Part shown: positions 208-34,547 of the stretch, piece by piece | Position numbering within the stretch: the first letter of the stretch is position 1 | Layout of the letters: each line of letters opens with the position of its first letter | Source: Verrucomicrobiota bacterium | GTDB lineage: Bacteria; Verrucomicrobiota; Verrucomicrobiia; Opitutales; UBA953 | Reading direction: 5' to 3' | Length of the DNA: 44,646 nt | Assembly (NCBI GenBank): GCA_016871415.1 | Contig: VHDL01000016.1 | Location: 1 to 44,646, forward strand | Notes under the pieces: model-generated | Told to the model about the DNA's origin: nothing | Database searches by the model: none | The model's input: only the letters and a program-made list of their open reading frames with translations | Translations under genes and position numbers: made by a program

Positions 208-3200
208 ATGAGACACCCCCTCTCTGCCCTGCTGGCGTTCCTGCTGGCGGCCTTCTCCCCCCTTTCCGCCCAGGAAGGCTTCAAATCCTTGTTCGACGGC
301 AGGACCCTCACCGGCTGGGACGGCAATCCCGAGCTCTGGACCGTCGAGGACGGCGCGATCACCGGCAAGACCAAGGGACCCGACCATCCCGCCTTCAACC
401 AGTTCCTCATCTGGCGCGGTGGCGTCGTGAAGAATTTCGAGCTGCGCGCCAGGATCAAGTGCTCCGCCAGCAACTCCGGCATCCAATACCGCAGCAAGGA
501 GCTCCCCGAAGCCGGCAAGTGGGTCGTCGGCGGCTACCAGTGCGATGTCCATGCGAACGCTCCCTACAACGGCATGGTCTACGAAGAACGCGGCCGCGGC
601 ATCCTCGTGCAGAACGGGCAGAACGTCGTCATCGACGACAAGGGCGACAAGTGGCTCGCCGCCGAGCGAGACCCCTTGAAGGTCGACTTCACCGAATGGC
701 ACGAGTACGTCATCATCGCGCAGGGCAACCACCTCGTCCACAAGGTCGACGGCAAGGTCACCATCGACCTCGTCGACCACCAGGCCGCGAACCGCGCCCT
801 CGAAGGCCTGCTCGCCTTCCAGGTGCACAAAGGCCCGGCCATGATAGTCCAGATCAAGGACGTCATGCTCAAGGAGCTCCCTGAAGCACCGCTCATCACC
901 CTGGACAAGAGCCCCATCCCCAGCGACGCCCAGCGCATCGTCGCCCCGGCCCCGGGCAAGAAGGCGCCGGCCAAGAACGCGCCGAAGGCCGCTCCGGGCA
1001 AGGCGAAGGCCAAAGCCCCGGCCAAGAACGCGCCGGCCGCCGAGACCGGCAAGGAGATCGGCGAGAACAAGGCCACGCCCGTCAGCCGCATCAAGGCTCC
1101 GGCCGGCTTCCGGGTCGAGCTCCTCTACTCCGTGCCCGGCGCCGAGAAAGGCTCCTGGGTCGCCCTCTGCGTGGATGACAAAGGACGCATCTACGCCAGC
1201 GACCAGTATGGCGACCTCTACCGTTTCCCTGCGCCGGCCGCCGGCCAGGTCCTCAAGGCCGCCGACATCCGGAAGATGCCGGTGAACATCCGCGCCATCA
1301 ACGGCATGACCTGGGCCTTCGGCGCCCTTTACGCCGGCGTGAATGATTACGAGAAGAAGATCCCCAGCGGCTTCTACCGCCTGAGCGACAGCGACGGCGA
1401 CGATCTGCTCGATAAAGTCGAACTCCTACGCGCGATCGAATCCGGCGGCGACCACGGCGTGCACAAGGTCCTCCTCACGCCCGACGGCCAAGGTTTCTTC
1501 CTCATCTGCGGCAACAACGCCGTGAAGACCGAGACCCCGGCCACCTCGCCCGTGGCGCCGCTCTGGGGCGACGACCACCTCCTCCCGCGCATGCCTGACG
1601 GCCGCGGCCACAACCGCCACGTCCTCGCCCCGGGCGGCATCGTCTACCGCATCAGCAAGGACGGGAAGACCTTCGAGACCTACGCCAGCGGCTTCCGCAA
1701 CATCTACGGCGGCGCCCTCAACCGCGCCGGCGACCTGTTCACGTACGATGCCGACATGGAGTATGACTTCAACACCCCGTGGTATCGTCCGACGCGCGTG
1801 AACCACGTCGTCAGCGGCGGCGAATACGGCTGGCGCAACGGCGCCGGCAAGTATCCCGAGTTCTACCCCGACAACCTGCCCGCCAACGTGAACATCGGCC
1901 CCGGCTCGCCCACCGGCATCGCCTTCGGCTACGGCGCCAAGTTCCCGGCCAAGTATCAGGAAGCCCTCTACATCATGGATTGGAGCTGGGGCAAGATCTA
2001 CGCCATCCAGCTCAAGCCGCAGGGCGCGAGCTATGTCGGCGTGAAGGAGGACTTCATCCAGGGCGCGCCCCTGCCCGTGACCGACCTCGCCATCCACCCG
2101 CAGGACGGCGCGATGTATTTCGCCATCGGCGGACGCAAGGTCCAGTCCGGCCTCTACCGCGTCACCTATGTCGGCAAGGAATCCACCGCGGCCGTGAGAT
2201 ACGACGCCCCGGCTCCGGCCGCCGAAGTCCTCGCTCGCAAGTCCCTGGAGCAATACCACGGCAAGCAGGACCCCAAGGCGGCGGACGTCGCCTGGCCGCA
2301 CCTGTCCTCCTCCGACCGCTGGTTGCGCAACGCCGCTCGCGTCGTGCTCGAGCATCAGCCGCACACCGGCTGGGCCGACCGCGCCTTCGCCGAGAAGGAC
2401 TTGACCGCCCGCCTCGAGGCGCTGCTCGCGCTCGCTCGCCAGGGCCTGCCCTGCCCCTATCACACCGAAAAGGCCGCCAAGCCCGTCCGGAGCACTGGCG
2501 TGCCCGTGAACAAGGCCGACCCCACGCCCGCCCAGGCCGCCCTGCGCGACCGACTGCTCAGCGCGCTCCTCGCGACCGACTTCGCGGCCCTCACCCGCGA
2601 GCAGAAACTCGTGCACGCCCGCGTCGCCCAGCTCGCCCTGCATCGCGGCGGCGATCCTGTCGCCGCCCTGGCGGCCAAGGTCTCCGCGCAGTACGACGCC
2701 GCCTTTCCCGACGCCTCCTTCGAGGTGAACTGGCTGCTCACCGAGACCCTTTCGCACCTCCAGTCCCCGAACCTCGCCGCCAAGGCCATGGCCGTGGTCG
2801 CCGACGCCGGCAGCCAGGAGCCCGAGATGGAGATCATGCGCAGCCTGCGCATGCTGAAGGCCGGCTGGACCCCGGAGCTGCGTGAGAAGCAGCTCAACTG
2901 GTTCGTCAAGGCCGCCAGCTACCGCGGCGGCTCGAGCTTCGGCAAGTTCATCGAGTTCATCCGCAACGACTCCCTCGCCACGTACTCGCCGGAAGAGCTG
3001 GCCCGTCACGAGAAGCTCGTCGCCCAGGCCAAGAACCCTCCCGTAAAATCCGCCTACGAGAACGTCGGCGCAATCTTCGCCGGCCGCACCCCCAAGAACT
3101 GGACCCTTGAGGAGCTCAGCGCCGCGGCCAGCACCGGCATGAAGGGACGCGACTTCGAGACCGGCCGCAGGATGTTTGGCGCCGCCGCCTGCTTCACGTG

Positions 3201-3594
3201 CCACCGTTACGGCAACGCCGGCGGGATGAACGGCCCGGACCTCACCGGCGCCGGCGGCCGCTACAGCCCGCACGACCTCCTCGACCAGATCATCAACCCC
3301 AGCAAGGAGATCAACGAGCAGTTCGCCCCGGTCGTCGTGACCAAGCAGGACGGCACCACCGTCACCGGCGTCATCGTGAACCTCAACGGCGACACCGTGC
3401 AGATCAACACCGACCTCTCCGACCCCGACCAGCGCGTCGGCTTCGACCGCAAGCAGGTCAAGAGCATCGAAGTCTCCAAGGTCTCGCCCATGCCGCCCAT
3501 GCTCCTGAACATGCTCACCAAGGAAGAGGTCCTCGATCTCCTCGCCTTCACCCTGAGCGGCGGCGACAAGAACGGACCCGCCTTCCAGAAGTAA
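208..3594 (+). CDS. DUF1080 + PVC-type dehydrogenase + cytochrome c fusion protein
   Basis: Exported 1128-residue multidomain protein. A Sec signal peptide (about 1-22) leads into a DUF1080/3-keto-disaccharide hydrolase-type domain (about 24-230, with the typical SLFDGRTLTGW start). A Lys/Ala/Pro linker follows (247-292), then a sugar-dehydrogenase-like beta-propeller of the PVC heme-binding type (about 295-650), a helical HEAT-like stretch (about 690-960) and a C-terminal cytochrome c domain with heme motif CFTCH at 995-999. The family is thought to oxidise sugars or alcohols in the periplasm and hand electrons to cytochromes. Fusion to a DUF1080 domain suggests oxidation of a glycoside to its 3-keto form and cleavage by one polypeptide, which is inference. 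No Shine-Dalgarno sequence precedes the ATG, which was chosen because it starts the signal peptide. The next gene follows 6 bases after the stop. Confidence 0.9.
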   Translation: MRHPLSALLAFLLAAFSPLSAQEGFKSLFDGRTLTGWDGNPELWTVEDGAITGKTKGPDHPAFNQFLIWRGGVVKNFELRARIKCSASNSGIQYRSKELPEAGKWVVGGYQCDVHANAPYNGMVYEERGRGILVQNGQNVVIDDKGDKWLAAERDPLKVDFTEWHEYVIIAQGNHLVHKVDGKVTIDLVDHQAANRALEGLLAFQVHKGPAMIVQIKDVMLKELPEAPLITLDKSPIPSDAQRIVAPAPGKKAPAKNAPKAAPGKAKAKAPAKNAPAAETGKEIGENKATPVSRIKAPAGFRVELLYSVPGAEKGSWVALCVDDKGRIYASDQYGDLYRFPAPAAGQVLKAADIRKMPVNIRAINGMTWAFGALYAGVNDYEKKIPSGFYRLSDSDGDDLLDKVELLRAIESGGDHGVHKVLLTPDGQGFFLICGNNAVKTETPATSPVAPLWGDDHLLPRMPDGRGHNRHVLAPGGIVYRISKDGKTFETYASGFRNIYGGALNRAGDLFTYDADMEYDFNTPWYRPTRVNHVVSGGEYGWRNGAGKYPEFYPDNLPANVNIGPGSPTGIAFGYGAKFPAKYQEALYIMDWSWGKIYAIQLKPQGASYVGVKEDFIQGAPLPVTDLAIHPQDGAMYFAIGGRKVQSGLYRVTYVGKESTAAVRYDAPAPAAEVLARKSLEQYHGKQDPKAADVAWPHLSSSDRWLRNAARVVLEHQPHTGWADRAFAEKDLTARLEALLALARQGLPCPYHTEKAAKPVRSTGVPVNKADPTPAQAALRDRLLSALLATDFAALTREQKLVHARVAQLALHRGGDPVAALAAKVSAQYDAAFPDASFEVNWLLTETLSHLQSPNLAAKAMAVVADAGSQEPEMEIMRSLRMLKAGWTPELREKQLNWFVKAASYRGGSSFGKFIEFIRNDSLATYSPEELARHEKLVAQAKNPPVKSAYENVGAIFAGRTPKNWTLEELSAAASTGMKGRDFETGRRMFGAAACFTCHRYGNAGGMNGPDLTGAGGRYSPHDLLDQIINPSKEINEQFAPVVVTKQDGTTVTGVIVNLNGDTVQINTDLSDPDQRVGFDRKQVKSIEVSKVSPMPPMLLNMLTKEEVLDLLAFTLSGGDKNGPAFQK

Positions 3595-4135: not shown

Positions 4136-5029
4136 ATGCGCCTCGCCCTCGCCTTCCTCTCCCTTTGCGTCGCGCTGACCGCGGGCGCCCAGGAAAAGAC
4201 CGCCAAGAAAAAAGCCGGCGGCTATCCGCCGACGATCGAAGGCACGAAGTCCGAGACCTACCGCAAGGTCGGCGAGACCGAGCTCAAGGTCTGGATCTTC
4301 GACTCGCGGCAGAAGCTTACGGAGCGCCCCCTGCCGGCGATCGTGTTCTTCTTCGGGGGTGGTTGGACGGGCGGTTCGCCGACGCAGTTCGAACCGCAGA
4401 GCCGGCACCTCGCCGCGCGCGGCATGGTCGCGATTGTCGCGGACTACCGGGTCAAGAGCCGTCAGGACGCCAAACCGGCCGACTGCGTCTCCGACGCCAA
4501 GGCCTGCGTCCGCTGGGTACGAGCGAACGCCGTTCGCCTCGGCATCGATCCGGACCGGATCGCGGTCGGCGGCGGGTCGGCCGGCGGCCATCTCGCCGCG
4601 TCGGTCGCGACCTTGCCCGGACTCGACACGGCGGCGGATGACAAGTCCGTCTCCTGCCTGCCTAATGCTCTCGTGCTCTTCAATCCCGGCACCGTCATGG
4701 CGCCCTTCCCCGGCCTGGACCTCAAGGGCTTCGGCGCCGGCCTGGACAAGTCGAAGTTCGGCTGCGAGCCCACGGAGATCTCGCCGATCCACTACGTGAA
4801 GAAAGGCCTGCCCCCGACCATCATCTTCCATGGCACGGCCGACACCACCGTACCCTACTCGACCGTCGAAAAGTTCACCGAAATCATGGAAGCCGCCGGC
4901 AACCGCTGCGAACTGGTCGGTTACGCAGGCGAAAGCCACAGCTTCTTCAACAAGTCGAAGTACGCCGAGACGCTGGCCGCCGCCGACGCCTTCCTCGTCT
5001 CGCTGGGCTACCTGCCCGCCAACAAGTAA
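4136..5029 (+). CDS. Exported alpha/beta hydrolase (esterase-like)
   Basis: A 297-residue secreted alpha/beta hydrolase of the esterase/lipase (BD-FAE or acetyl-xylan-esterase-like) group. The signal peptide is about 1-18. An oxyanion-hole segment FFFGGGW lies near 70. The nucleophile elbow GGSAG puts Ser at 148, Asp236 sits in GTADTT and His268 in ESHSF, giving a complete triad. It probably removes an ester group, such as acetyl, from a glycan or small molecule; the substrate is unknown. The frame is open upstream to 3929, but the ATG at 4136 starts a clean Sec signal and everything upstream is repeat DNA. The sulfatase gene begins 3 bases after its stop, so the two are coupled, consistent with de-esterification and desulfation of the same material. 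Confidence 0.85.
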   Translation: MRLALAFLSLCVALTAGAQEKTAKKKAGGYPPTIEGTKSETYRKVGETELKVWIFDSRQKLTERPLPAIVFFFGGGWTGGSPTQFEPQSRHLAARGMVAIVADYRVKSRQDAKPADCVSDAKACVRWVRANAVRLGIDPDRIAVGGGSAGGHLAASVATLPGLDTAADDKSVSCLPNALVLFNPGTVMAPFPGLDLKGFGAGLDKSKFGCEPTEISPIHYVKKGLPPTIIFHGTADTTVPYSTVEKFTEIMEAAGNRCELVGYAGESHSFFNKSKYAETLAAADAFLVSLGYLPANK

Positions 5030-5032
5030 GCC

Positions 5033-6829
5033 ATGCGCCGCATTGTCCTACTTGGTGCCCTCCTCCTGACGGCCGCCCTCGTCTGGGCTAAGTCGCCGAA
5101 CGTGGTCGTCCTGCTGGCGGATGACGCCGGCTGGGGGGACTACTCGTTCAACGGCAACCGCCAGGTCGCCACGCCGCACATCGACGGCATCGCCAAGGCC
5201 GGCGCGCACTTCGACCGGTTCTTCGTCCAGCCCGTCTGTTCCCCCACCCGCTCGGAGTTCCTCACCGGCCGCTATCACCGACGCCTCGGCGTCTACGGCG
5301 TCTCCACCGGGCAGGAGCGCCTGAATCCGGACGAGAAGACCGTCGCCGACTCCTTCAAGGCCGCCGGCTACGTCACCGGCCTCTTCGGCAAGTGGCACAA
5401 CGGCAGCCAGTGGCCCTATCACCCACTCGCCCGCGGCTTCGACACCTTCTGGGGCTACACCTCCGGCCACTGGGGCGAATACTTCGACGCGCCGCTCGAG
5501 CACAACGGCGTCATGAAGACCTCCCAGGGCTATATCGTGGACGTCCTCACGGACAAAGCCTTGCAGTTCATCGAACGCAACCGGACCAAGCCCTTCCTGT
5601 GCTACGTGCCGTTCACCACCCCGCACTCGCCTTGGTCGGTGCCCGCCGCGGATTGGGCGCGTCTCAAAGACAAACCGGTCAGCCAGACCGCGACGAACGC
5701 CCAAGCCGAGAAGCTTGACGAAACCCGCTGCGCCTTGGCCATGGTCGAGAACCAGGACCGCAACGTCGGCCAGATCCTCGCCAAGCTCAAGGAACTCGGC
5801 CTGGAACAGGACACCATCGTGGTCTACTTCTCCGACAACGGACCCAACGGCCATCGTTGGACCGGAGGCATGAAAGGGACCAAGGCGAGCACTGACGAAG
5901 GCGGCGTGCGCTCTCCGCTCTTCATCCGCTGGCCCGGCAAGATCGCGGCCGGCACGCAGGTGAAGCCCATCGCCGGCGCAATCGACCTCGCGTCGACGCT
6001 TGAAGCCTTGGCCGGCGTGAAGCGCGTCGGCGACCGCCCGCGCGACGGACGAGATCTTTCACCGTTGCTCAGGACCGGGCTGGACGCCGACTGGGCGCCT
6101 CGGCAGATCTTCAACACCTGGGGCAACAGCGTCAGCGTGCGCACCCAGACCCATCGTCTCGATGGCGCCGGCAACCTCTTCGACATGGTCGCCGACCCCG
6201 GCCAGACGACCCCCATCCAAGCCAAGCAGCCGGACCTCGCCCAGGAGCTCAGCGCAGCGGTCGCGGCTTGGCGCAAGGAGATGGGCATCGCCGCGCCGAT
6301 CGGCGGCAAGGGCAAAGGCAAGGGCGGCAACGGCCCCGGCAATGCCGTCGATCCCCGTCCGATCCACGTCGGCTACCGCGAGTTCCCGACGACCATGCTG
6401 CCGGCGCGCGACGGTGAGCCACGCGGCGGCATGCGACGGAGCGCCGCGGCGCCGAACTCGTCTTATTTCGTGAACTGGACCAAGCCGGAGGACGCCGCCG
6501 TCTGGAACGTCGAAGTCGTCACCGCGGGGACCTATGTCGTCACCCTCGACTACGCCTGCGCCGCAGACGCCGTCGGCACCCCGCTGGAACTTTCCTTCGA
6601 AGGTACGTTGCTCAAAGGCGGGATCACCGAGGCCTTCGACAGCCCCCTGAAGCCCGAGCAGGACACCCTGCCCCGTCCGCGAGGCGAATCCGTCATGCGC
6701 GACTTCCGCTCCATGATCCTCGGCGAGGTCCGCCTCGAGCCCGGCAAGGGCGAACTCAGGCTCCGTGCGCCGGAGATCCGGGGCAAGGGCGTCATGGACC
6801 TTCGCCGCATCACCCTGACGCTCAGATAA
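5033..6829 (+). CDS. Secreted S1-family sulfatase with C-terminal beta-sandwich
   Basis: A 598-residue formylglycine-dependent sulfatase. Signal peptide about 1-19; PNVVVLLADDAGWGD carries the first metal-binding Asp pair. The active-site signature CSPTR is at 69-73 followed by TGR (78-80), so Cys69 should be converted to formylglycine by FGE. Further conserved segments are GKWHNG and FSDNGPNG. A Gly/Lys-rich linker (about 423-437) separates the catalytic domain from a C-terminal region of about 150 residues that looks like an all-beta ligand-binding or carbohydrate-binding module. It hydrolyses sulfate esters outside the cytoplasm, probably on a glycan. It lies 3 bases after the hydrolase stop and 1 base before the next start, so it is mid-operon. 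Confidence 0.9.
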   Translation: MRRIVLLGALLLTAALVWAKSPNVVVLLADDAGWGDYSFNGNRQVATPHIDGIAKAGAHFDRFFVQPVCSPTRSEFLTGRYHRRLGVYGVSTGQERLNPDEKTVADSFKAAGYVTGLFGKWHNGSQWPYHPLARGFDTFWGYTSGHWGEYFDAPLEHNGVMKTSQGYIVDVLTDKALQFIERNRTKPFLCYVPFTTPHSPWSVPAADWARLKDKPVSQTATNAQAEKLDETRCALAMVENQDRNVGQILAKLKELGLEQDTIVVYFSDNGPNGHRWTGGMKGTKASTDEGGVRSPLFIRWPGKIAAGTQVKPIAGAIDLASTLEALAGVKRVGDRPRDGRDLSPLLRTGLDADWAPRQIFNTWGNSVSVRTQTHRLDGAGNLFDMVADPGQTTPIQAKQPDLAQELSAAVAAWRKEMGIAAPIGGKGKGKGGNGPGNAVDPRPIHVGYREFPTTMLPARDGEPRGGMRRSAAAPNSSYFVNWTKPEDAAVWNVEVVTAGTYVVTLDYACAADAVGTPLELSFEGTLLKGGITEAFDSPLKPEQDTLPRPRGESVMRDFRSMILGEVRLEPGKGELRLRAPEIRGKGVMDLRRITLTLR

Positions 6830-6830
6830 A

Positions 6831-9818
6831 ATGAGGGCGACCCCGCTGCTTCTCCTGCTCTCCGCAGGTCTCCTCGCCGCGGAGGCGCCGCCGACCGGCA
6901 ATGCGCAGGTCGCCGAGATGGCCAAGACGTTCAAAGGACGCGGCGTGCAGGCGGACGATACCCCGCCTTCGACCCCGGCCGATGCGCTGAAGAAGTTCAC
7001 GGTCCGCAACGGTCTGAAGATCGAGCTCATCGCGGCGGAACCGGCCATCACCCAGCCCATCCATGCGAGCTGGGACTCCCAAGGCCGCCTCTGGGTGGTG
7101 CAGTTCCCGCAGTATCCTTTCCCGGCAGGACTGAAGGTCATCAGCTACGACCAGCACCTGCGCGCGCAGTTCGACAAGGTCCCCTTGCCTCCGCCCGCGG
7201 GAGACAAAGGCGCCGACGTCATCAGCGTCCTTGAGGATACCGACGGAGACGGCACCTACGACAAGCAGGCCGACGTCCTGCGAGGCCTCAATATCGTGAC
7301 CGCAGCCGTCGCCGGCGACGGGCTCCTCTGGGTGCTTAATCCGCCCTACCTGCTGAGCTACGCGCTGAAGGACGGACTCCCCGTCGGCGACCCGTCCGTC
7401 GAGCTGGCGGGCTTCGGCCTGGAAGACACGCACAGCACCGCGACCAGCCTCCAGTTCAACATCGACGGCTGGCTCTACGGCGCGAACGGCAGCACGACCA
7501 CCGGCAACGTCGGCGTGCCCGGCGGCAAGCGGACCGCCTGGACAGGCCAGTGCATCTGGCGCTTCCATCCGACCCGCAAGACCTTTGAGATCTACGCCGA
7601 GGGCGGCGGCAACACCTACAGCCTCGATATCGACGGCAAGGGCCGCGTCTTCTCGGGCTCCAATTACGGCGACACCCGCGGGATGCATTACGAGTTCGGT
7701 TCCTATGGCGTGAAGAACTGGGGCAAGCATGGTCCGCTCACGAATCCGCATGCCTATGGGTGGTTCGAACACATGGCGAACACCGGCGACAAGCGACGCT
7801 TCCCGCAAGCGTTCGTGCTCTACGAAGGCGGGCTGCTTGGTGCGGAATACGACGGCAAGCTCCTGGTGCCTAATTCGCTGGCGAACAAGGCGTACGTCAG
7901 CCGGCTCGTGCCGCAGGGCTCGACCTTCCGCACCATCGACGAAGAAGACCTCATCGCCAGCAGCGACCGCTGGTTCCGTCCCGTCTGGACCGGCGTCGGA
8001 CCCGACGGAGCGGTCACTCTGGCCGATTGGTATGACACCCGCCTCAGCCATGTGAACCCCGTCGACGACTGGGACAAACAACGCGGCCGTCTCTACCGTA
8101 TCCGGCCGGATGACGCCAAGGTCGGACTGAAACCTTTCGACCTCTCCCGGGCGCCGGCGGGCGAGCTCGTCGCCCTGCTCGCGCATCGCAACGAATGGTT
8201 CCGCAAGCAGGCCGTCCTCGAGATCGGCTGGCGCGGGCTCAAGGAAACGGTTCCGGCGCTCCGCGGGATGCTCACAGGTCAGCATGCATTGGAAGCCCTC
8301 TGGGCGCTCGACCTGCTCGGCGCCGTCGACGCGCCGCCCGTGACGCATGCCGACCCTTACGTACGCCGCTGGGCGTGGAAGATGCTCGGCGAACGCAGGG
8401 CCGTGCCCACCTCCGCTCAGATCAACGCGGCCAAGCAGGAAGCCCACCTTGAGGTCAGGGCGCAGATCCTGGCCTCGGCCAAGCGGATGCCGAACGAAGG
8501 CCTGCCGCTGGTGCGAGCGGGACTCGGGGCCCCCGACGAATCCGGACACCTCCCCTTGCTCGCCTGGTGGGCGTTGGAAGCGCACCTCGGCACGTCCGCC
8601 GAACGGGCGGCGGCGATTGATTTCCTGCGCGCCGATCCGTCGTTCGTCGCCTCAACCGTCTTCCGCGAAACCCTGGCCGAACGCATCGGCAAGCGCCTCG
8701 CCCATGGCGCGCGCCCGGAATCCCTGGCCGACGCGGCCGAAGTGCTGGCGCTCTGCCCGGCCCCCGCCGCGGAGAAGCTGTTGGACGGCATCCTTTCGCA
8801 GCTGGAGGCCGGCGACCTCCCTCCCATGCCGGCTTCGCTGCGCACCGCCCTGGAAGCCCGGCAGACGAAGGACGGACGGCAGCCGATCCCGCTGGCCCAC
8901 CTTCGCGCCGGCCACAAATCCGCCCTCGCGGCCGCCCTTAAGGAACTCTCCGACAAGCGCACGCCGGACCGACGTCTCCACGAGCTCGCCGACGCGCTGT
9001 CGATCGCCCAGCGCCCGGAAGCCATCGACCCGCTGCTCAAGCTGCTCATCGCTCCGAACACCGTCGGCAAGAAACCCTTGCTGTCGGCCCTTTCGCGCTA
9101 CGACGACGTCCGACTGCCCCGGGCCATCATCGACAACTACGAGCGCTCCATCGCGGCGGATGACGGCCTGCGGGATCTCGCGCTACGCACCTTGGCCGGT
9201 CGCCCCGCCTGGGCCACCCTCCTGCTCTCGGCCGTCGACACCGGCAAGATCCCGGCGCCGCACATCACCGCCGACGTCGCCCGCGCCTTGCTCCGCCACG
9301 GACTGCCGGAGGCGAACTCCGCCATCGAACGCCTCTGGAAGCCGTTGCTCGTGACCGGGCTCACGCCGGAGAAAGACCAGGAAGTCGCCCGTCTCCGGGC
9401 GGTCGCCCGCGCCGGAGAAGGCGACGACGCAAAGGGACGGGTTCATTTCCTGGCCCGTTGCGCCAGTTGCCATCAGCTGAAGGGCGAAGGCGGCAAGGTG
9501 GGCCCCGAACTGACCGGCTATGACCGTAGCAGCCTCGACTTCTGGGTGCTCAACATCATCTACCCCAGTCTCGAGATCCGCGAAGGCTTCGGGGCCTATG
9601 ACGTCCGCCTCAAGGACGGCACGATCGCCAACGGTATCCTTGAACGTCGCGAAGGCGGCGAGATCGTCCTGCGCGACCTCGCCGGCAACCGCACCAAGGT
9701 CAAGGAAGCCGCCGTCGCTTCGCTGCTCGCCAGCCCGACTTCGGTCATGCCCGAGAACCTGCTCGCCGGGTTGTCTGATCACGATCTTCGGGATTTCTTC
9801 GCGTATGTGATGAAGTGA
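6831..9818 (+). CDS. PVC-type membrane-bound dehydrogenase with HEAT region and cytochrome c
   Basis: A 995-residue exported protein: signal peptide about 1-16, a beta-propeller of the PVC heme-binding/glucose-sorbosone dehydrogenase-like type (about 55-430), a HEAT-like helical region (about 440-850) and a C-terminal cytochrome c domain with CASCH at 877-881. The calcium-binding-like DTDGDGTYDK loop typical of this family is present near 138. Likely role: oxidation of a sugar or alcohol in the periplasm with electron transfer to the respiratory chain. Unlike the protein at 208 it lacks a DUF1080 domain. The ATG lies 1 base after the sulfatase stop, indicating translational coupling. A low-complexity repeat tract begins 17 bases after its stop. 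Confidence 0.9.
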   Translation: MRATPLLLLLSAGLLAAEAPPTGNAQVAEMAKTFKGRGVQADDTPPSTPADALKKFTVRNGLKIELIAAEPAITQPIHASWDSQGRLWVVQFPQYPFPAGLKVISYDQHLRAQFDKVPLPPPAGDKGADVISVLEDTDGDGTYDKQADVLRGLNIVTAAVAGDGLLWVLNPPYLLSYALKDGLPVGDPSVELAGFGLEDTHSTATSLQFNIDGWLYGANGSTTTGNVGVPGGKRTAWTGQCIWRFHPTRKTFEIYAEGGGNTYSLDIDGKGRVFSGSNYGDTRGMHYEFGSYGVKNWGKHGPLTNPHAYGWFEHMANTGDKRRFPQAFVLYEGGLLGAEYDGKLLVPNSLANKAYVSRLVPQGSTFRTIDEEDLIASSDRWFRPVWTGVGPDGAVTLADWYDTRLSHVNPVDDWDKQRGRLYRIRPDDAKVGLKPFDLSRAPAGELVALLAHRNEWFRKQAVLEIGWRGLKETVPALRGMLTGQHALEALWALDLLGAVDAPPVTHADPYVRRWAWKMLGERRAVPTSAQINAAKQEAHLEVRAQILASAKRMPNEGLPLVRAGLGAPDESGHLPLLAWWALEAHLGTSAERAAAIDFLRADPSFVASTVFRETLAERIGKRLAHGARPESLADAAEVLALCPAPAAEKLLDGILSQLEAGDLPPMPASLRTALEARQTKDGRQPIPLAHLRAGHKSALAAALKELSDKRTPDRRLHELADALSIAQRPEAIDPLLKLLIAPNTVGKKPLLSALSRYDDVRLPRAIIDNYERSIAADDGLRDLALRTLAGRPAWATLLLSAVDTGKIPAPHITADVARALLRHGLPEANSAIERLWKPLLVTGLTPEKDQEVARLRAVARAGEGDDAKGRVHFLARCASCHQLKGEGGKVGPELTGYDRSSLDFWVLNIIYPSLEIREGFGAYDVRLKDGTIANGILERREGGEIVLRDLAGNRTKVKEAAVASLLASPTSVMPENLLAGLSDHDLRDFFAYVMK

Positions 9819-10432: not shown

Positions 10433-10526
10433 GCGAGCGCCCTAAATGAGGGAAATCGGAGCCACCCGGACGCGAAGTCTGGCTGGATTAAAGCCGCCAC
10501 GGCCTCACAATAGATGGCGATCTGCC

Positions 10527-13500
10527 ATGAAGTCTCGCGCCCTGCTCCTCGCCCTCGCCTCGCTCGCCCTCGGCGTCCACGCCGCCGACAAGCCGGTAGC
10601 CGACCATAGCAAGATCAAGACGCGGGCCGACAAAGCCAACGCCGCCAACTGGCCCGACAACAGCAAGGGCTCCCCCACCCCGCACGCCCCGGCAGAGAAC
10701 CCGCCCGAGGCGAAGATGCAGCGCTCCCAGCGCGGCCAGGCGCCCGGCAAGGGCGAGACGATCGCCTTCATCGGCAACGGCTTCGCCGAACGCGAGACCT
10801 ACTACGGCCGCATCGAGACCGAGCTCCAGCTCCGCTTCCCCGACCGAGGCTTCATCGTGCGCAACCTCGGACGCTCGGGCGACACCCCCGCCTTCCGCCC
10901 CCATCCCGCGCGCGCCAGCCAGTGGGCCTTCCCGGGTGCCGAGAAGTTCCACCCCGAATACGCCCAGCACAACGGCAAGGGCTTCTTCTCCACGCCCGAC
11001 CAGTGGCTCTTCCATGTGAAGGCCGGCACCATCGTCGCCTTCTTCGGATACAACGAGTCCTTCGACGGACTCGGCAGGGTCGAAAACTACGAGGCGGAGC
11101 TCGACGCCTTCGTCGCCCACTCCCTCACCCGCGCCTACGACGGCGAGCGCGCCCCGCGCCTGGCCCTCGCCTCGCCCTTCGCCTTCGAGGACCTCTCCAA
11201 GAAGCGCGACCTACCCGACGGCAAGAAGGAGAACGAGCGCCTCGTCGCCTACTCCCAGGCCATGGGCCGCGTCGCCCAGAAACACGGCCTGACCTTCATC
11301 GACCTCTTCAGCGCCTCCCGCGACGCCTACGCCGCCAAGGCCGAAGGCGCCCCGGACTACACCATCAACGGCTTCGCGCCCACCGACCACGGCTACCGCT
11401 TCGCCGCCAAGATCGTGGCCGACGCGCTCTACGGCGTCGCCGCCCGCAAGTCGAAGGCCGACGAGGCCCTGGTCAACGCCGCCGTGAAGCAGAAGGATCA
11501 CTGGTGGAATTCCGACTACGCCATCGTCAACGGCGTCCACACCCACGGCCAGCGCTACAATCCCTTCGGCCCGCAGAACTACCCCGACGAAGTCCGCAAG
11601 ATCCGCGAGATGACCGCCCTGCGTGACACGCTCATCCAGGACGTCGCCGCTGGACGCCGCGCCGACCTGACCGTCGACGACTCGAAGACGCACCCCCTGC
11701 CGCCCGTCCCGACCAACTACAAGCCCAGCGACAAGAACGGCGACCCCGCCAAGTTCCTCTCCGGCGAGGAGGCCATCGCCAAGATGAAGCTCCTGCCCGG
11801 CTTTAAGGTGAACCTCTTCGCGGACGAGTCGATGTTCCCCGACCTCAAGAAGCCCGTGCAGATGTCCTTCGACGCCAAGGGCCGCCTCTGGGTCGCCACC
11901 ACGCCGACCTACCCGCACCATCGCCCCGGCGACCCCGCGCCCGACGACAAGCTCCTCATCCTCGAGGACACCGACGGCGACGGACGCGCCGACAAGCGCA
12001 GCGTCTTCGCCGACGGCCTGCACCTGCCCATCGGCTTCGAAATCGCGCCCGAAGGCGTGTACCTCTCCCAGGAACCCAACCTCGCCCTGCTCATCGACGA
12101 CGACAAGGACGGCAAGGCCGACCGCAAGGAGCTGATCCTGCACGGCTTCGACTCCCACGACACACACCACGCCATCTCGGCCTACTGCGCCGACGCCTCC
12201 GGCGCGTTCCACCTGCTCGAAGGACGGTTCCTGCACAGCCAGGTGGAGACCCCCTACGGTCCGCGGCGCTGCAACGACGGCGGCGCCTGGCGCTTCGACC
12301 CCAAGTCCTTCCGCCTCGAGCGCTATCAGACCGACGTCTCCAACCCCTGGGGCTTCTCGTTCAACCGCTGGGAGCAGCCGCACCTCTCCGACGCCTCGCC
12401 CGGTGAGAACTGGTGGGCCCTGCCGCTCTCGGCCAAGATGCCGTACGGCATCGAGATCCCCAAGATCGAGCAGTTCGTCCCCAAGCGGTCCCGTCCGAGC
12501 TCCGGCGCTGAATTCGTCTCCTCCCGCCACTTCCCCGAGGAATACCAGGGCGACTTCATGACGTGCAACACCATCGGCTTCCTCGGCATCAGCCTAGGCA
12601 CGCCGAGCGACGACGGCGCCGGCTACGTCGGCAAGGCGCACGGCGACCTCATCGTGTCCGAGGACGGCAACTTCCGCCCCGTCGATCTCGAGTTCGCGCC
12701 CGACGGCTCGCTCTACTTCCTGGACTGGCAGAACCCGCTCATCGGGCACATGCAGCACAACGCGCGCGACCCCAACCGCGACCGCGAGAAGGGCCGCATC
12801 TACCGCATCACCTGCCCGGGCCGCCCGCTCCTCAAGCCCGCCAAGGTCGACGGCGCCTCGGTCGCCGAGCTGCTGGAGAACCTGAAGGAGCCCGAATACC
12901 GCACCCGTTACCGCACCCGCCGCGAACTCCGCGGCCGTCCCGCCTCCGAAGTGCTGCCCGCCGTCAAGGCTTGGGTCGACCGTCTCGACCCCGCGGACCC
13001 TGAGTTCGAGCACCGCCTTTGCGAGGCGATGTGGGCCACCTGGGCGCAGAACGCTCCCGACGAGGCCCTGATCCGCCGCCTCCTTTCCGCCAAGCGACCC
13101 GAGGCGCGCGCCGCGGCGGCCGACGTCGTCCGCCACGCCTTCTGGAAGCTGCCCGCACATGTCGAACTGCTCATGCAGGCCGCGCGCGACGAGCATCCGC
13201 GCGTGCGCCTGACCGCGCTCGTGGCGGCCTCCTGGCTGGACAACGCCGACGGCGCCCGCATCGCCCTGGAGACCTTCCGCAAGCCCATCGACCGCTGGGC
13301 CGGACCGGTCACCCACTACGTCATGACGTACACGCTGTCGGACGACGTGAAGTCGCTGCTCGCGGGCGGACTCAAGCCGGACGACAACCCCGCGGCCGCG
13401 GACTACCTCGCCGGCAGGAGCGCGATCAGCAAGCCCGTGGCCGAAGAAGGCGGCACCGTGCGCCCCTCGCGCAAGCTCACCGCCGACGAGCAGAAGATCT

Positions 13501-13934
13501 TCGACCTCGGCAAGTCCGTCTACTTCCGCGACGCCCACTGCGCCACCTGCCACCAGGCGGACGGCAAGGGCCTGCCCAACGTCTACCCGCCCCTGTCCCG
13601 CAGCGACTGGCTGGAGAGCGACGAGCGCGTCATCAAGATCGTGCTCAAGGGCCTCTGGGGTCCGATCAAGGTCTCAGGCAAGGACTTCGACCCCACCAAG
13701 GGCGTGCCGCCCATGATGGGCTTCGCCGGCCTGCTCAATGACCAGGAAGTGGCGGCGGTCATCACCTTCAGCCGCCTCGCCTTCGGCAACAACGGCAAGC
13801 CCGTGAGCGCCGACCAAGTGGCCAAGGTGCGCGAGGCCACCAAGGACCGCGTGAACTTCTACATGGCCGACGAGATCCTCAAGGAGCATCCCCTGAAGCC
13901 CGCGGGACAGGGCAAGGGCGGCAAGAAGAAGTGA
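10527..13934 (+). CDS. SGNH-like domain + PVC-type dehydrogenase + cytochrome c fusion
   Basis: A 1135-residue exported protein. Signal peptide about 1-20. An SGNH/GDSL-like domain occupies about 75-310, recognisable from FIGNGFAERETYYGRIE and VRNLGRSGD; the usual Ser is replaced in the first block (GNGF), so catalysis is doubtful. A PVC heme-binding dehydrogenase propeller follows (about 410-770, with the DTDGDGRADK loop), then a helical region and a cytochrome c domain with CATCH at 1005-1009. This order is known in Planctomycetes and Verrucomicrobia. Likely role: sugar or alcohol oxidation linked to respiration. The frame is open from 10446, but the ATG at 10527 begins the signal peptide. 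A strong terminator follows at 13962. Confidence 0.88.
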   Translation: MKSRALLLALASLALGVHAADKPVADHSKIKTRADKANAANWPDNSKGSPTPHAPAENPPEAKMQRSQRGQAPGKGETIAFIGNGFAERETYYGRIETELQLRFPDRGFIVRNLGRSGDTPAFRPHPARASQWAFPGAEKFHPEYAQHNGKGFFSTPDQWLFHVKAGTIVAFFGYNESFDGLGRVENYEAELDAFVAHSLTRAYDGERAPRLALASPFAFEDLSKKRDLPDGKKENERLVAYSQAMGRVAQKHGLTFIDLFSASRDAYAAKAEGAPDYTINGFAPTDHGYRFAAKIVADALYGVAARKSKADEALVNAAVKQKDHWWNSDYAIVNGVHTHGQRYNPFGPQNYPDEVRKIREMTALRDTLIQDVAAGRRADLTVDDSKTHPLPPVPTNYKPSDKNGDPAKFLSGEEAIAKMKLLPGFKVNLFADESMFPDLKKPVQMSFDAKGRLWVATTPTYPHHRPGDPAPDDKLLILEDTDGDGRADKRSVFADGLHLPIGFEIAPEGVYLSQEPNLALLIDDDKDGKADRKELILHGFDSHDTHHAISAYCADASGAFHLLEGRFLHSQVETPYGPRRCNDGGAWRFDPKSFRLERYQTDVSNPWGFSFNRWEQPHLSDASPGENWWALPLSAKMPYGIEIPKIEQFVPKRSRPSSGAEFVSSRHFPEEYQGDFMTCNTIGFLGISLGTPSDDGAGYVGKAHGDLIVSEDGNFRPVDLEFAPDGSLYFLDWQNPLIGHMQHNARDPNRDREKGRIYRITCPGRPLLKPAKVDGASVAELLENLKEPEYRTRYRTRRELRGRPASEVLPAVKAWVDRLDPADPEFEHRLCEAMWATWAQNAPDEALIRRLLSAKRPEARAAAADVVRHAFWKLPAHVELLMQAARDEHPRVRLTALVAASWLDNADGARIALETFRKPIDRWAGPVTHYVMTYTLSDDVKSLLAGGLKPDDNPAAADYLAGRSAISKPVAEEGGTVRPSRKLTADEQKIFDLGKSVYFRDAHCATCHQADGKGLPNVYPPLSRSDWLESDERVIKIVLKGLWGPIKVSGKDFDPTKGVPPMMGFAGLLNDQEVAAVITFSRLAFGNNGKPVSADQVAKVREATKDRVNFYMADEILKEHPLKPAGQGKGGKKK

Positions 13935-16621: not shown

Positions 16622-16667
16622 CCTCTTGTGGGTTGTGCCCCATGCCCGGGAGAAGTCTACTCCGACC

Positions 16668-17744
16668 ATGCGTCCGACCGCCCTGCTCCTGCTTGCGCTG
16701 GCGGCCCTCCTGACTTCCTGCGACGCAGGCCGCGAGCCCTCCCGCCCGCTGGTGCTGGCGCACGTGATGCCGTGGTTCGAGACCAAGGAGAAGTCAGGCG
16801 GCTGGGGCTGGCACTGGACGATGGACCGCAAGGATCCGTCGAAGGGCGAGATCGCCGCCCACCAGCGACCGCTCATCGGCCCCTACGACTCCTCGGATCC
16901 CGCCGTCGTCGCCTATCAGGTCGCGCTGATGAAGGCGGCCGGCGTCGATGGCGTCGTCATCGACTGGTACGGTCTCGGCGGATTCAAGGATTACGAATCC
17001 ATCCACCGGGCCTCGCTGTTGCTCATCACAGAAATCAAGAAGGCCGGCCTCCGTTTCGCGGTCTGCATGGAGGACAACATCGGCGCACGCTTCATGAAGG
17101 AAGCCGGCATGAAACGCGAGGAGGCGACGGCCAAGGTCGCCGAAGCCTTCGCCTGGCTGGAGGCCAACTGGCTGCGCGACGAGGGCTATGTGCGACTGGA
17201 AGGCAAGCCGGTGATGCTCATCTTCGGCCCGCAGTACCTGCAGGAGAAGGAATGGCTTGTCATCCGCAGGCGCATGACCTCCGAACCCCTGACCTACGTC
17301 CTGCCGCACCTCAGCGCCACGCCGGGGGTCGACGGGCGCTTCGTCTGGATACCGGTGTACGACGGACGCACGGTCGCCCCGGAGGCCTGGAAGGCCGAAC
17401 TGGCCGCATGGCAGCAAGGTCCGAAGGAAGACCGGCGCATCGCCGCGGCCTTCCCGGGCTACCATGATTTCTACGCGCAGGCCGGCGCGCGGCCCAGCTA
17501 TGGACGCATCGAAGACCGCGGCGGCGCCACCTTCGCGGAATCACTCAAGCTCGCGATGACCAGCGGGGCGTCCATCGTGCAGATCGCCACTTGGAACGAC
17601 TACGGCGAAGGGACTGCGGTCGAGCCGACGGTCCAGCAGGGACACCGCGATCTTGAGACCCTCATGCGGCGCCTGCGGCCCGGGGCCGACCCGACCGAAC
17701 TGACCCGGATCACGGAGCGATTCCTGAAATCCCAAGGCCGCTGA
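16668..17744 (+). CDS. GH99/GH71-like lipoprotein
   Basis: A 358-residue predicted lipoprotein: basic start, hydrophobic core and lipobox LTSC with Cys18 as the lipidation site. The mature part looks like the GH99/GH71-like (endo-alpha-mannosidase or glycan hydrolase) TIM barrel found in Bacteroidetes and Verrucomicrobia: VMPWFETK near 28, GWGWHW, a DGVVIDWYG segment near 100-110, and TWNDYGEGTAVEP near the end. It probably hydrolyses or binds a glycan at the cell envelope; substrate unknown. The ATG at 16668 is used because it starts the lipoprotein signal; an in-frame ATG at 16626 lies just beyond the tRNA terminator and would disrupt the signal. Confidence 0.8.
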   Translation: MRPTALLLLALAALLTSCDAGREPSRPLVLAHVMPWFETKEKSGGWGWHWTMDRKDPSKGEIAAHQRPLIGPYDSSDPAVVAYQVALMKAAGVDGVVIDWYGLGGFKDYESIHRASLLLITEIKKAGLRFAVCMEDNIGARFMKEAGMKREEATAKVAEAFAWLEANWLRDEGYVRLEGKPVMLIFGPQYLQEKEWLVIRRRMTSEPLTYVLPHLSATPGVDGRFVWIPVYDGRTVAPEAWKAELAAWQQGPKEDRRIAAAFPGYHDFYAQAGARPSYGRIEDRGGATFAESLKLAMTSGASIVQIATWNDYGEGTAVEPTVQQGHRDLETLMRRLRPGADPTELTRITERFLKSQGR

Positions 17745-17768: not shown

Positions 17769-17820
17769 AAGAAAGCGTCCCGGGGTTGCAGTCGTCCGTG
17801 CCGGGGGTTTGATTTTTCCC

Positions 17821-20268: not shown

Positions 20269-20282
20269 GGCACGACAACCTA

Positions 20283-20304
20283 CCCCCACCCCTACCCCTA
20301 CCCC
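20283..20304. repeat. C-tract repeat, quadruplex-capable on the minus strand
   Basis: Four C-runs (20283-20287, 20289-20292, 20295-20298, 20301-20304) are separated by A or TA. The minus strand therefore has four G-runs with 1-2 base loops, a canonical G-quadruplex pattern. It lies between the two genes of the DUF1553/DUF1501 pair, ending 8 bases before the DUF1501 ATG, where a Shine-Dalgarno sequence would be expected. Confidence 0.85.
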
Positions 20305-20311
20305 TTTCGAG

Positions 20312-21766
20312 ATGCACCCCCTTCGCGAAGCCCAGCTCAGCCTCCAGACCCGCCGCACGTTCCTGAGCAGCGTCGGCCAGTTCAGCCTCGGCGCCATCGC
20401 CCTGCACGCCATGCAGGCCGACCTGCTCGGCGCATCCGCCGCGCCGGCCAACCCGCTCGCTCCCCGTAAGCCGCACTACAAGGCCAAGGCCAAGCACGTG
20501 ATCTACCTGCACATGTCGGGCGGCCCGCCCAACCTGGATATCTTCGACCACAAGCCCGAGCTGGTGAAGCGCAACGCCGAGGACTGCCCGGATTCCTTCC
20601 TCAAGGGCCGCACCTTCGCCTTCACGACCGGCGTGCCCAAGCTCATGGGCTCGCCGCGGATGTTCAAGCAATACGGCAAGGGAGGCCTCTGGATGAGCGA
20701 TGCCGTCCCGAATTTCCATAAAATCGCCGACGATGTCACGCTCGTGAAGGCGATGCACACGGACCAGTTCAACCACGCCCCGGCGGAACTGCTCCTATTC
20801 ACCGGCCACAACCGCCAGGGCCGTCCCTCGCTGGGTTCCTGGGCCACCTACGGACTCGGCACCGAGAACCAGGACCTCCCGGGCTTCGTCACGATGATCT
20901 CCAACGGCGTCCAGCCCAGCGGCGGCCAAGGCTGCTGGGGCTCGGGCTTCATCCCGTCCGTCTACCAAGGCGTGCAGTGCCGCAGCAAGGGCGACCCCGT
21001 CCTCTTCGCCAACGACCCGCCCGGCATGACCCGCGACCTGCGCCGCGCCACGCTCGACGCCCTCAACGCGCTCAACCAGCGCCAGCAGGACGAGCTCGGC
21101 CACGCCGAGACGGTCACCCGCATCGCCCAGTATGAACTCGCCTTCCGCATGCAGGCCAGCGTGCCCGAGGTCATGGATATCTCGAAGGAGAAGCCCGCGA
21201 CGCTCGCCGCCTACGGCGCCCAGCCGGGCCAGGCCAGCTTCGCCAACAACTGCCTGCTCGCCCGCCGGCTCGTCGAGAAAGGCGTGCGCTTCGTCCACCT
21301 CTTCGACTGGGGCTGGGACTTCCACGGCACGAACCCCAAGGAAGACATCCGCGACGGCCTCACCGCCAAGATGGCCGCGACCGACAAGCCCGTGATGGCG
21401 CTCATCAACGACCTCAAGGATCGCGGTCTGCTCGACGACACGCTCGTCGTCTGGGGCGGCGAATTCGGCCGGACGCCTTTCCGCGAGGGCCGTACGTCCA
21501 AGGGCGAGGTGCTCGGCCGCGACCACTACCCCGACTGCTTCACGATCATGATGGCCGGCGGCGGCGTGAAGGGCGGCTTCCAGTTCGGCGAAACCGACGA
21601 GATGGGCTTCGCGGGCGTGAAGGACAAGGTCCACGTCCACGACCTGCAGGCCACCATCATGCACCTCCTCGGCTTCGACCACGAACGCCTCACCTACCGC
21701 TTCCAAGGCCGGGACTATCGCCTCACCGACGTGCATGGCCACGTCGTGAAGCAGATTCTTAGTTAG
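20312..21766 (+). CDS. Tat-exported DUF1501 protein
   Basis: A 484-residue DUF1501 protein. The N-terminus has a twin-arginine motif (TRRTFLSS, near 13-20) and a weakly hydrophobic stretch, so it is probably exported folded by the Tat route. Family landmarks are MSGGPPNLDIFDHKPEL near 67 and [10 protein letters not shown] near 385. The fold belongs to the alkaline phosphatase/sulfatase-like group, but the family reaction is not established. It pairs with the upstream DUF1549/DUF1553 cytochrome, so one partner uses Sec and the other Tat. The stop codon lies at the edge of a G-rich repeat whose first G run includes the final base of the TAG. Confidence 0.92.
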   Translation: MHPLREAQLSLQTRRTFLSSVGQFSLGAIALHAMQADLLGASAAPANPLAPRKPHYKAKAKHVIYLHMSGGPPNLDIFDHKPELVKRNAEDCPDSFLKGRTFAFTTGVPKLMGSPRMFKQYGKGGLWMSDAVPNFHKIADDVTLVKAMHTDQFNHAPAELLLFTGHNRQGRPSLGSWATYGLGTENQDLPGFVTMISNGVQPSGGQGCWGSGFIPSVYQGVQCRSKGDPVLFANDPPGMTRDLRRATLDALNALNQRQQDELGHAETVTRIAQYELAFRMQASVPEVMDISKEKPATLAAYGAQPGQASFANNCLLARRLVEKGVRFVHLFDWGWDFHGTNPKEDIRDGLTAKMAATDKPVMALINDLKDRGLLDDTLVVWGGEFGRTPFREGRTSKGEVLGRDHYPDCFTIMMAGGGVKGGFQFGETDEMGFAGVKDKVHVHDLQATIMHLLGFDHERLTYRFQGRDYRLTDVHGHVVKQILS

Positions 21767-21906
21767 GGACAGGGGCAGGGACAGGGGCAGGGATAGTTAT
21801 GGAGAGGGAAGAAGGCGGAGTCAGTTCCCTGACTTTTCAAACCCCTTGCCTCTGGTGTCTCCCTGTCCCTGTCCCTGTCCCTGCCCCTGCCCCTGTCCCT
21901 GTCCCT
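21766..21906 (+). repeat. Facing G-rich and C-rich arms between genes
   Basis: The left arm 21766-21793 alternates GGGACA and GGGGCA; the right arm 21861-21906 alternates CCCTGT and CCCTGC. They are imperfect inverted copies separated by 67 bases and could pair as a long hairpin in RNA. Each strand also has enough G-runs for a quadruplex. A CATCC-rich pyrimidine tract (about 21907-21955) continues to the next ATG, leaving no room for a Shine-Dalgarno sequence. No gene lies in the 194-base gap. Confidence 0.85.
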
Positions 21907-21960
21907 TCATCCTTTATCCCCCATCCCTCATCCTCCATCCTCCCTTCTCACCCCCTCCCC

Positions 21961-26365: not shown

Positions 26366-26367
26366 CC

Positions 26368-30593: not shown

Positions 30594-30646
30594 CGTAGAT
30601 GAGGGTTGCGGAAGCCCCTGACGGGCCAATCCTACGCCCCACCCCG

Positions 30647-34546: not shown

Positions 34547-34547
34547 C

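Follow-up and report, generated by a model that had tools for sequence, protein, structure and literature searches.

A conserved fusion of a DUF1080 domain, a dehydrogenase-like beta-propeller and a c-type haem domain in Verrucomicrobiota

Characterised relatives of the DUF1080 domain work on 3-keto sugars, and in the LacABC systems of Caulobacter, Pedobacter and others a DUF1080 protein is reported near a periplasmic sugar dehydrogenase (PMC9007349). Among these relatives, BT2157 of Bacteroides thetaiotaomicron is a 3-keto-glycoside eliminase/hydratase of solved structure (3osd, 8tda, 8rr2 and 9fbe); an H275N variant of a B. thetaiotaomicron 3-keto-O-glycoside lyase, which we take to be BT2157, is described as being without hydration activity (PMC13273386), and deletion of BT2157 is reported to leave growth on sugars of the raffinose family unimpaired (PMC11501099). 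A DUF1080 protein of Thermogutta has been reported as an ordinary endo-glucanase with activity towards xanthan, lichenan and further glucans (PMC10881899). On the dehydrogenase side, the AA12 enzyme CcPDH of Coprinopsis cinerea (6jt5) is a single secreted polypeptide made up of a haem domain, a PQQ propeller and a carbohydrate module (PMC4332668), and PVC-type haem-binding CxxCH proteins (TIGR02604/TIGR02603), such as Lac161_ORF7, carry a dehydrogenase-type domain, helical repeats and a c-type haem (PMC5342196). Term searches of the open-licence literature found no description of a fusion of DUF1080, propeller and haem domain. In this report, we describe such a fusion from a Verrucomicrobiota bacterium, encoded in a stretch of 44,646 nucleotides (the window), with the following features:

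208..3594, + strand: whole fused gene, ATG start, 1128 aa (open reading frame, profile matches and orthologues)
208..270, + strand: signal peptide, about residues 1-21 (judged by eye from the N-terminal sequence; helix 4-15 in the model)
277..870, + strand: DUF1080 / 3keto-disac_hyd domain, residues 24-221 (PF06439 profile, alignments and predicted fold)
886..1065, + strand: Ala/Pro/Lys-rich linker, residues 227-286 (low model confidence)
1066..2175, + strand: sGDH/AA12-like beta-propeller, about residues 287-656, with D415-H416 and R497-N498 (predicted fold and alignments)
2176..3117, + strand: alpha-helical region, residues 657-970 (predicted model)
3118..3591, + strand: c-type haem domain (TIGR02603), CxxCH 995-999 and invariant M1095 (profile and alignment)

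The initial annotation had placed three parts in this one polypeptide, and this was borne out: the open reading frame is present, PF06439 matches residues 24-221 (E 9.5e-32; 111 bits against a curated cut-off of 26.8), the predicted propeller fold is dehydrogenase-like, and a CxxCH motif runs from C995 to H999. Of its name for the propeller, PVC dehydrogenase, the dehydrogenase part is supported by the predicted fold, but the sequence families agree less well; TIGR02604, the 'PVC-type' model, scores 69.7 bits over residues 386-638 against a cut-off of 122.2, and was therefore dropped as a firm label, and PF23500/DUF7133 was not reported for the fused protein in a family scan at E 0.001, so that, judged by sequence, the assignment is distant. 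The haem domain is matched by TIGR02603 (residues 982-1114; 88.2 bits against a cut-off of 68.15) and by Cytochrom_C (residues 984-1032); it is poorly predicted in the model, and C995, C998, H999 and M1095, the last a putative axial haem ligand, are invariant in 42/42 fused proteins. A RecC_C match in the helical part fell below its cut-off and was taken as chance. The order of dehydrogenase-type domain, helical part and c-type haem is that of Lac161_ORF7, which differs in that DUF1080 is not among the domains listed for it, the window protein being under the TIGR02604 cut-off. CcPDH differs in being fungal, with a b-type haem at the N-terminus and CBM1 at the C-terminus.

The fusion is present in 52 of the 80 orthologous loci among those listed, in Verrucomicrobiota and including three from Planctomycetota; one fused orthologue belongs to the named strain Brevifollis gellanilyticus NBRC 108608 (L127). 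In a further 22 of these 80 loci, the propeller-haem protein is retained but no DUF1080 was seen in the available DNA, which extends over 5 kb upstream in 16 of the 22, and in L121, L136 and L147 the orthologous DUF1080 is a separate gene within the locus (71%, 70% and 66% identity). On the tree, the DUF1080 label changes 12 times. Three further DUF1080-PVC-dehydrogenase-cytochrome fusions are encoded in the same genome, which brings the layout to four proteins of one genome, and the genome holds 18 TIGR02603 domains above cut-off. The dN/dS of the DUF1080 part is 0.125-0.297 in five of five genus pairs, indicating purifying selection, and this selection together with the fused orthologues in independent records rules out an assembly chimera or a chance fusion. 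Profiles and predicted models together show a single chain, kept over wide distances, in which a flexible linker separates a DUF1080 jelly-roll from a GSDH-like propeller and a c-type haem domain.

The DUF1080 domain was modelled with a pLDDT of 96.3, and a fold search returned 4jqt, a protein without a function test, first (Z 23.0), followed by 9fbe (20.7) and by 3osd, 8tda and 8rr2 (19.4-19.5). These closest folds after 4jqt are titled 3-keto-glycoside eliminase/hydratase or 3-keto-2-hydroxy-glucal hydratase, and the titles thus also point to 3-keto sugars; the hydrolase-type label of the initial annotation fits the known family reaction less well than elimination/hydration. With BT2157 the domain shares the PF06439 fold (Z 19.4-20.7 over 178 residues) and the equivalent of His275: a profile alignment pairs H207 with the histidine at chain index 250 of BT2157, which is residue 275 as reckoned from the 3osd range. 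This position is His in 38 of the 42 fused proteins aligned and Ser in the other four, and in A2 it is His in 20/21. BT2157 is unfused and has a Glu at chain index 139 and longer loops, whereas the subfamily of the window protein has Q111, in all 42 fused proteins, and YEERGRG instead. Gln also occupies the Q111 position in domain 1 of 4jqt, and to our knowledge the Glu is not known to define the PF06439 family. As a check on the catalytic residues of a characterised relative, the comparison gives a mixed picture, with the His275 equivalent retained but Gln standing for Glu throughout; Q93, R95, Q111, E127, R130, D190 and Q205 are invariant in 42/42 fused proteins. CBM66 scores Z 17.5-18.2 against the domain, 1-2 below BT2157, with 16-17% identity over the structural match vs 26-28% for the enzymes.

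For the propeller, the 16 best fold entries, in which one protein recurs several times, all belong to glucose, aldose or pyranose dehydrogenases or to AA12 (Z 26.0-27.7; CcPDH 27.1), and the next kinds of fold (lactonase, Diels-Alderases and DFPase) score Z 25.0 or less. Soluble PQQ glucose dehydrogenase and aldose sugar dehydrogenase (1c9u, 3a9g, 3das and 2g8s) share the propeller fold, the catalytic His and the Arg-Asn motif, but the matched chains consist of the propeller alone and their sequence similarity to the window protein is very weak (E 0.06). In this weak match, D415-H416 aligns with sGDH positions 143-144; in a profile alignment with four GSDH sequences, H416 is the His of NHxGG and R497-N498 falls in GHRNPQG (local probability 71.6%). 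D415, H416, R497 and N498 are each conserved in 42/42 fused proteins, and Pfam GSDH (PF07995) was not reported for the fused protein in the family scan (E 0.001). The solved relatives of the propeller are C1-oxidising enzymes, and the LacABC system differs from the window in having separate genes and, as its oxidising part, LacABC itself, which is of the GMC/FAD type and without a propeller. C3-oxidising systems described in the literature include LacABC (PMC9007349) and a flavoenzyme (PMC10628242); for CcPDH, C1 oxidation was inferred by its authors (PMC4332668). PQQ synthesis was considered as support for a quinoprotein and set aside, as neither PqqC nor PqqE was found in this genome. PqqC is above cut-off in 6/288 phylum genomes, all six in one family, and PqqE in 0/57 genomes; PqqE matches lay below cut-off only, in 15/57 relatives and in 14/14 controls, so that this search was without a positive control above cut-off. 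PQQ uptake from outside is a possible source of the cofactor.

The fused gene is followed on the same strand by these neighbours:

4136..5029, + strand: BD-FAE-type esterase, recurrent neighbour, likely start ATG 4136
5033..6829, + strand: sulfatase, recurrent neighbour
6831..9818, + strand: PVC-type dehydrogenase with CxxCH, recurrent neighbour
10446..13934, + strand: GDSL-PVC-type dehydrogenase-cytochrome fusion, neighbour

Across ten fused genus contexts (the window and nine others), a PVC dehydrogenase is a neighbour in 10/10, a sulfatase in 9/10 and an esterase in 7/10; the genus loci L107 and L109, which have the fusion, show no esterase-sulfatase-dehydrogenase neighbours within 6 kb. 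Sulfatases make up 10 of the 49 neighbours in 14 loci, a raw count with no background rate for comparison. A family scan of 25 window proteins returned neither a GFO/IDH nor an isomerase family; genome-wide there are 22 GFO_IDH_MocA matches above cut-off, and these proteins are possible further keto-sugar partners. The genome's single GMC match, together with a Gluconate_2-dh3 gene, is found immediately upstream of one of the sister DUF1080 fusions, and another enzyme may therefore carry out C3 oxidation, the GMC pair being a better candidate C3 oxidase than the propeller. A GMC gene stands beside the sister fusion in 18/30 loci, within one genus only. Outside the genus a GMC match was seen beside 0/7 clear orthologues of the sister fusion (L235-L241, 1.5 kb flanks), and extending the flanks of two of these loci gave none either; this search used one query and may miss divergent GMC genes. 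For the fusion of the window itself, the 97 stretches searched around its orthologues contain no GMC match.

According to the initial annotation, C3 of a glycoside would be oxidised by the propeller and the resulting 3-keto product cleaved by the DUF1080 domain next to it, so that the fusion would link the oxidising and cleaving partners. The physical linkage in one conserved chain stands, but production of the 3-keto group by the propeller is not supported, given the C1 chemistry of its solved relatives, the described C3 systems being LacABC and a flavoenzyme, the GMC pair beside the sister fusion and the 22/80 listed loci that keep the propeller-haem protein without DUF1080, and we consider the whole scheme unlikely. 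It draws on the 3-keto-sugar chemistry of characterised DUF1080 relatives (PMC9007349; PDB titles), on the recurrence of the layout within one genome and in 52/80 loci listed, and on the survival of the DUF1080 orthologue as its own gene in three loci. A rather unlikely but live reading takes DUF1080 as a non-catalytic, CBM66-like module that tethers a haem-linked dehydrogenase to glycan. CcPDH follows the same logic with haem domain, PQQ propeller and CBM1 (PMC4332668), and the closeness of the CBM66 fold, the coming and going of the domain on the tree, the Ser at the H207 position in 4/42 fused proteins and the replacement of Glu by Q111 all suit a binding role; the sequence, however, is nearer the enzymes, and seven invariant residues with H207 in 38/42 are more than tethering seems to need.

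Improbable in our judgement is that one domain is a classical non-redox glycosidase, whether the propeller, as in the PVC-type protein of a Chthoniobacter-like cosmid, or DUF1080, as in Thermogutta; the propeller fold is that of dehydrogenases, and an invariant haem site would be useless to such an enzyme. E. coli BL21 is Lac+, and LacZ is of about 116 kDa. Purified Lac161_ORF7 (TIGR02604, HEAT_2 and cytochrome c) is reported to free glucose from lactose with a Km of 1.8 mM and a kcat of 13.2 per s (PMC5342196), but it was made in E. coli BL21(DE3)pLysS with IPTG. Since the preparation ran at 109 kDa and its Km resembles that of LacZ, the activity could stem from the LacZ of the host. Its homologues have been counted as putative glycoside hydrolases (PMC5352709), and the Thermogutta protein is described as acting on glucans (PMC10881899).

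What we tentatively prefer, from profiles and predicted folds, is a secreted, probably periplasmic, modular haem-linked sugar dehydrogenase with an attached catalytic module that processes 3-keto sugars. The propeller would oxidise a hydroxyl group of a sugar; by analogy with its solved relatives, the likeliest position is C1 of a reducing sugar. His416 would serve as base, and PQQ or some replacement for it, imported and not synthesised by the cell, would be the cofactor on top of the propeller; electrons would pass to the attached haem and on to the respiratory chain. The DUF1080 domain may act on 3-keto sugars by elimination/hydration with H207, releasing or rearranging a sugar that the propeller would then oxidise, and the 3-keto group itself may come from other dehydrogenases. 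Weighing against this reading are the failure to find PqqC and PqqE in the genome, Q111 in place of Glu, the listed loci in which no DUF1080 was seen, the confinement of the GMC link to the sister fusion within one genus, the missing neighbour set in L107 and L109, the lack of GFO/IDH or isomerase families among the scanned window proteins, the endo-glucanase activity reported for Thermogutta and the growth of the BT2157 deletion strain. A sulfated, decorated glycan is hinted at as the sugar source by the esterase and sulfatase genes next to the fusion.

Verrucomicrobiota and Planctomycetota have many haem-bearing dehydrogenase-like proteins without an assigned function, and their conserved fusion to a domain whose 3-keto-sugar chemistry is known offers a concrete substrate class to test, also in the named strain B. 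gellanilyticus NBRC 108608. Should DUF1080 only bind, a test on this substrate class would show what such modules do in these phyla. Single-chain redox glycoside cleavage is doubtful; here a propeller of the PQQ-dehydrogenase fold would have shifted to C3, would reduce the haem of its own chain and would supply the 3-keto glycoside to the eliminase/hydratase domain of that chain. If true, a glycosidic bond would be broken by oxidation without a classical glycosidase and, by extension, the opening of glycans would be the task of many PVC-specific dehydrogenase-cytochromes. With oxidation and cleavage coupled in a single chain, the fusion would offer, for decorated glycans, a respiratory route in place of glycosidases.

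The open reading frame at 208-3594 (+) is real and begins with ATG, as the initial annotation had described, and it encodes 1128 aa. The three-part anatomy proposed for it held for the DUF1080 and haem domains, which both exceed their cut-offs, whereas the PVC-type label is a remote one by sequence: TIGR02604, the 'PVC-type' N-terminal model, reached 69.7 bits, below its NCBIfam cut-off of 122.2. The haem motif is a CxxCH running from C995 to H999. The features of the protein are as follows.

Features of the fusion encoded at 208-3594, + strand
Residues 24-221: 3keto-disac_hyd (PF06439, DUF1080); Pfam, 111 bits against a cut-off of 26.8
Residues 227-286: Ala/Pro/Lys-rich linker; from sequence, with low model confidence
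Residues 982-1114: haem domain TIGR02603; NCBIfam, 88.2 bits against a cut-off of 68.15
Residues 984-1032: Cytochrom_C; Pfam match

The source genome (2.2 Mb, 99.5% complete, with the window as its contig C16) contains 25 PF06439 matches, 21 of them above cut-off, and 18 TIGR02603 domains above cut-off. Three further proteins join DUF1080, DUF7133/TIGR02604 and a cytochrome c domain, namely L082 (1448 aa, including a Laminin_G_3 stretch), L083 (1299 aa) and L084 (1208 aa, which also matches GDSL); thus, the layout is found four times in one genome. Both domain families are already known, as is DUF1080 beside a dehydrogenase; a term search of the open-licence literature found no description of the DUF1080-dehydrogenase-cytochrome union. 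A second DUF1080 protein in the window (21799-22932, 377 aa, domain in the C-terminal half) adjoins a PSD1/DUF1501 pair.

A search of 57 relatives revealed fused orthologues in the genus, together with propeller-haem proteins that do not carry the DUF1080 part. We also analysed the best 80 of at least 263 relatives in a scan of named genomes, some records of which are the same assemblies as members of the 57; among the matches listed, the most similar loci were mainly Opitutae, Opitutia or Verrucomicrobiota. Among these best 80, DUF1080 lay in the same ORF in 52 loci (three of them Planctomycetota: L161, L177 and L180) and in another ORF in five, one ORF was cut by a contig end, and no DUF1080 was seen in the available DNA of 22, of which 16 have more than 5 kb of upstream DNA and six have less (L115, L117, L134, L142, L170 and L174). 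Two of the five, L133 and L139, appear to be fusions that have broken apart; in L121, L136 and L147, a separate DUF1080 gene upstream of the propeller-haem gene shares 71%, 70% and 66% identity with the fused domain, respectively, and each gene begins with its own signal-like N-terminus. In the relative's locus L095 (G043), the propeller-haem ORF is directly adjoined or overlapped by a separate DUF1080 ORF of 41% identity. On an 85-row tree built by a quick method, the fused state required 12 changes against 24.1 in shuffles, at least eight of them forced by well-supported branches, indicating that the DUF1080 module was repeatedly lost or gained. The dN/dS values were 0.125-0.297 for DUF1080 in all five pairs and 0.097-0.209 for the propeller. 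The anatomy and conservation of the fusion are near certain.

In ten fused contexts of the genus (the window, L085-L088, L092-L094, L099 and L100), the neighbours include orthologues of a PVC dehydrogenase (10/10), a sulfatase (9/10) and an esterase (7/10); all three are absent within 6 kb of the close fused loci L107 and L109. For 14 fused loci from outside the genus, Sulfatase was matched by 10 of 49 neighbours, a raw count. The window also holds three clusters of planctomycete-type cytochrome genes (17809-21766, 23885-27666 and 30599-35948), comprising PSCyt1/PSCyt2/PSD1 with DUF1501 and PSD2-5/PSCyt3 with HXXSHH, one of the clusters having a Laminin_G_3 domain. Further on from the dehydrogenase genes, in the downstream direction, a protein (16626-17744) weakly matches GH99/WbsX types. 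A study of freshwater Verrucomicrobia had already described many such cytochrome genes in the vicinity of sulfatases, some of them carrying carbohydrate-binding modules (PMC5615132).

We modelled the protein with AlphaFold2 from 42 fused sequences, combining that of the window with those of 41 of the 52 fused loci; the mean pLDDT was 79.2, with good values over DUF1080, the helical part and most of the propeller and poor ones over the haem part. Each of the top 16 structural matches of residues ~293-656 was an AA12 entry or a glucose, aldose or pyranose dehydrogenase (Z 26.0-27.7; including 3a9g, 1qbi, 6jt5 and 2g8s), several being one and the same Acinetobacter enzyme; a lactonase, a Diels-Alderase and DFPase ranked next (Z ≤25.0). 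The best PDB sequence match, sGDH, was weak (E 0.06) and aligned D415-H416 with chain positions 143-144; His144 is the base in sGDH. A profile alignment against four GSDH sequences (local probability 71.6%) placed H416 opposite the conserved His of NHxGG and R497-N498 opposite GHRNPQG, and D415, H416, R497 and N498 are identical in all 42 fused proteins. Of 288 phylum genomes, six members of a single family had PqqC above cut-off, and the source genome did not; PqqE exceeded its cut-off in none of the 57 relatives and had no match in the source genome. The propeller is likely a sugar dehydrogenase.

Modelled alone (pLDDT 96.3), the DUF1080 domain best matched 4jqt (BT3469, of putative function going by its title; Z 23.0), followed by '3-keto-glycoside eliminase/hydratase' or '3-keto-2-hydroxy-glucal-hydratase' entries mixed with relatives of putative function (9fbe, 20.7; 3osd, 19.5; 8tda and 8rr2, 19.4) and, behind the eliminase/hydratase entries, CBM66 (18.2). 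In the profile alignment, H207 falls opposite a His of 3osd, at index 250; because index 32 is residue 57 when alignment ranges are compared (offset 25), index 250 would be residue 275. A 3-keto-O-glycoside lyase of B. thetaiotaomicron, taken to be BT2157, is reported to have no hydration activity as the H275N variant (PMC13273386). This His equivalent is kept in 38 of 42 fused proteins, whereas Gln111, present in all 42, replaces the Glu of BT2157. E127 and R130 occur together in 14 of 21 aligned DUF1080 domains and in none of the other seven, five of which carry Glu at 111. Thus, the domain is not visibly dead, yet not residue-for-residue BT2157. Catalysis by DUF1080 seems slightly favoured.

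The domain may instead only bind carbohydrate. The fungal CcPDH, with its haem domain, PQQ propeller and CBM1, is a close parallel in layout and favours this alternative (PMC4332668), and the four proteins with Ser at 207 (L151, L155, L164 and L165) would be natural candidates for a binding-only DUF1080; the His retained in the other 38 speaks against it. Another alternative is glycosidase activity in one of the domains, as endo-glucanase activity is reported for a DUF1080 protein (PMC10881899) and glycosidase activity for a PVC-type protein without DUF1080 (PMC5342196). We add the caution that host LacZ may have contaminated the latter. Deletion of BT2157 is reported to have left growth on raffinose-family sugars unaffected (PMC11501099).

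LacABC is linked with DUF1080 in lactose use (PMC9007349). It is of the flavin type. In the source genome, the single PF05199 (GMC) match adjoins the sister fusion L084, and among known proteins its sequence most resembles the large subunits of membrane-bound fructose and glucose dehydrogenases; in that locus (contig C15, 4159-10464), GMC oxidoreductase, Gluconate_2-dh3 and the DUF1080-GDSL-PVC dehydrogenase-cytochrome fusion form one gene set. A GMC gene adjoins the sister fusion in 18 of 30 fetched loci, all in the genus with the source genome counted, and we count these as one ancestral event. Among the other 12, L225 has the small-subunit gene at a contig end, five are cut on that side and six encode more distant proteins. 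None of seven clear orthologues outside the genus (L235-L241) has a GMC gene within 1.5 kb, widening the stretch for two of these loci revealed none either, and 97 stretches around the window fusion and its orthologues gave no GMC match.

It had been proposed that one chain oxidises a glycoside at C3 and then cleaves the 3-keto product through DUF1080. The dehydrogenase part of this proposal is likely, but C3 oxidation by the propeller itself is doubtful, because kin of the propeller oxidise C1 and because a flavin-type dehydrogenase, the kind tied to DUF1080 in LacABC, adjoins the sister fusion. On the same two grounds, we prefer a division of labour in which DUF1080 would handle 3-keto sugars, while the propeller would oxidise a sugar, most likely at C1, and pass its electrons to the haem.
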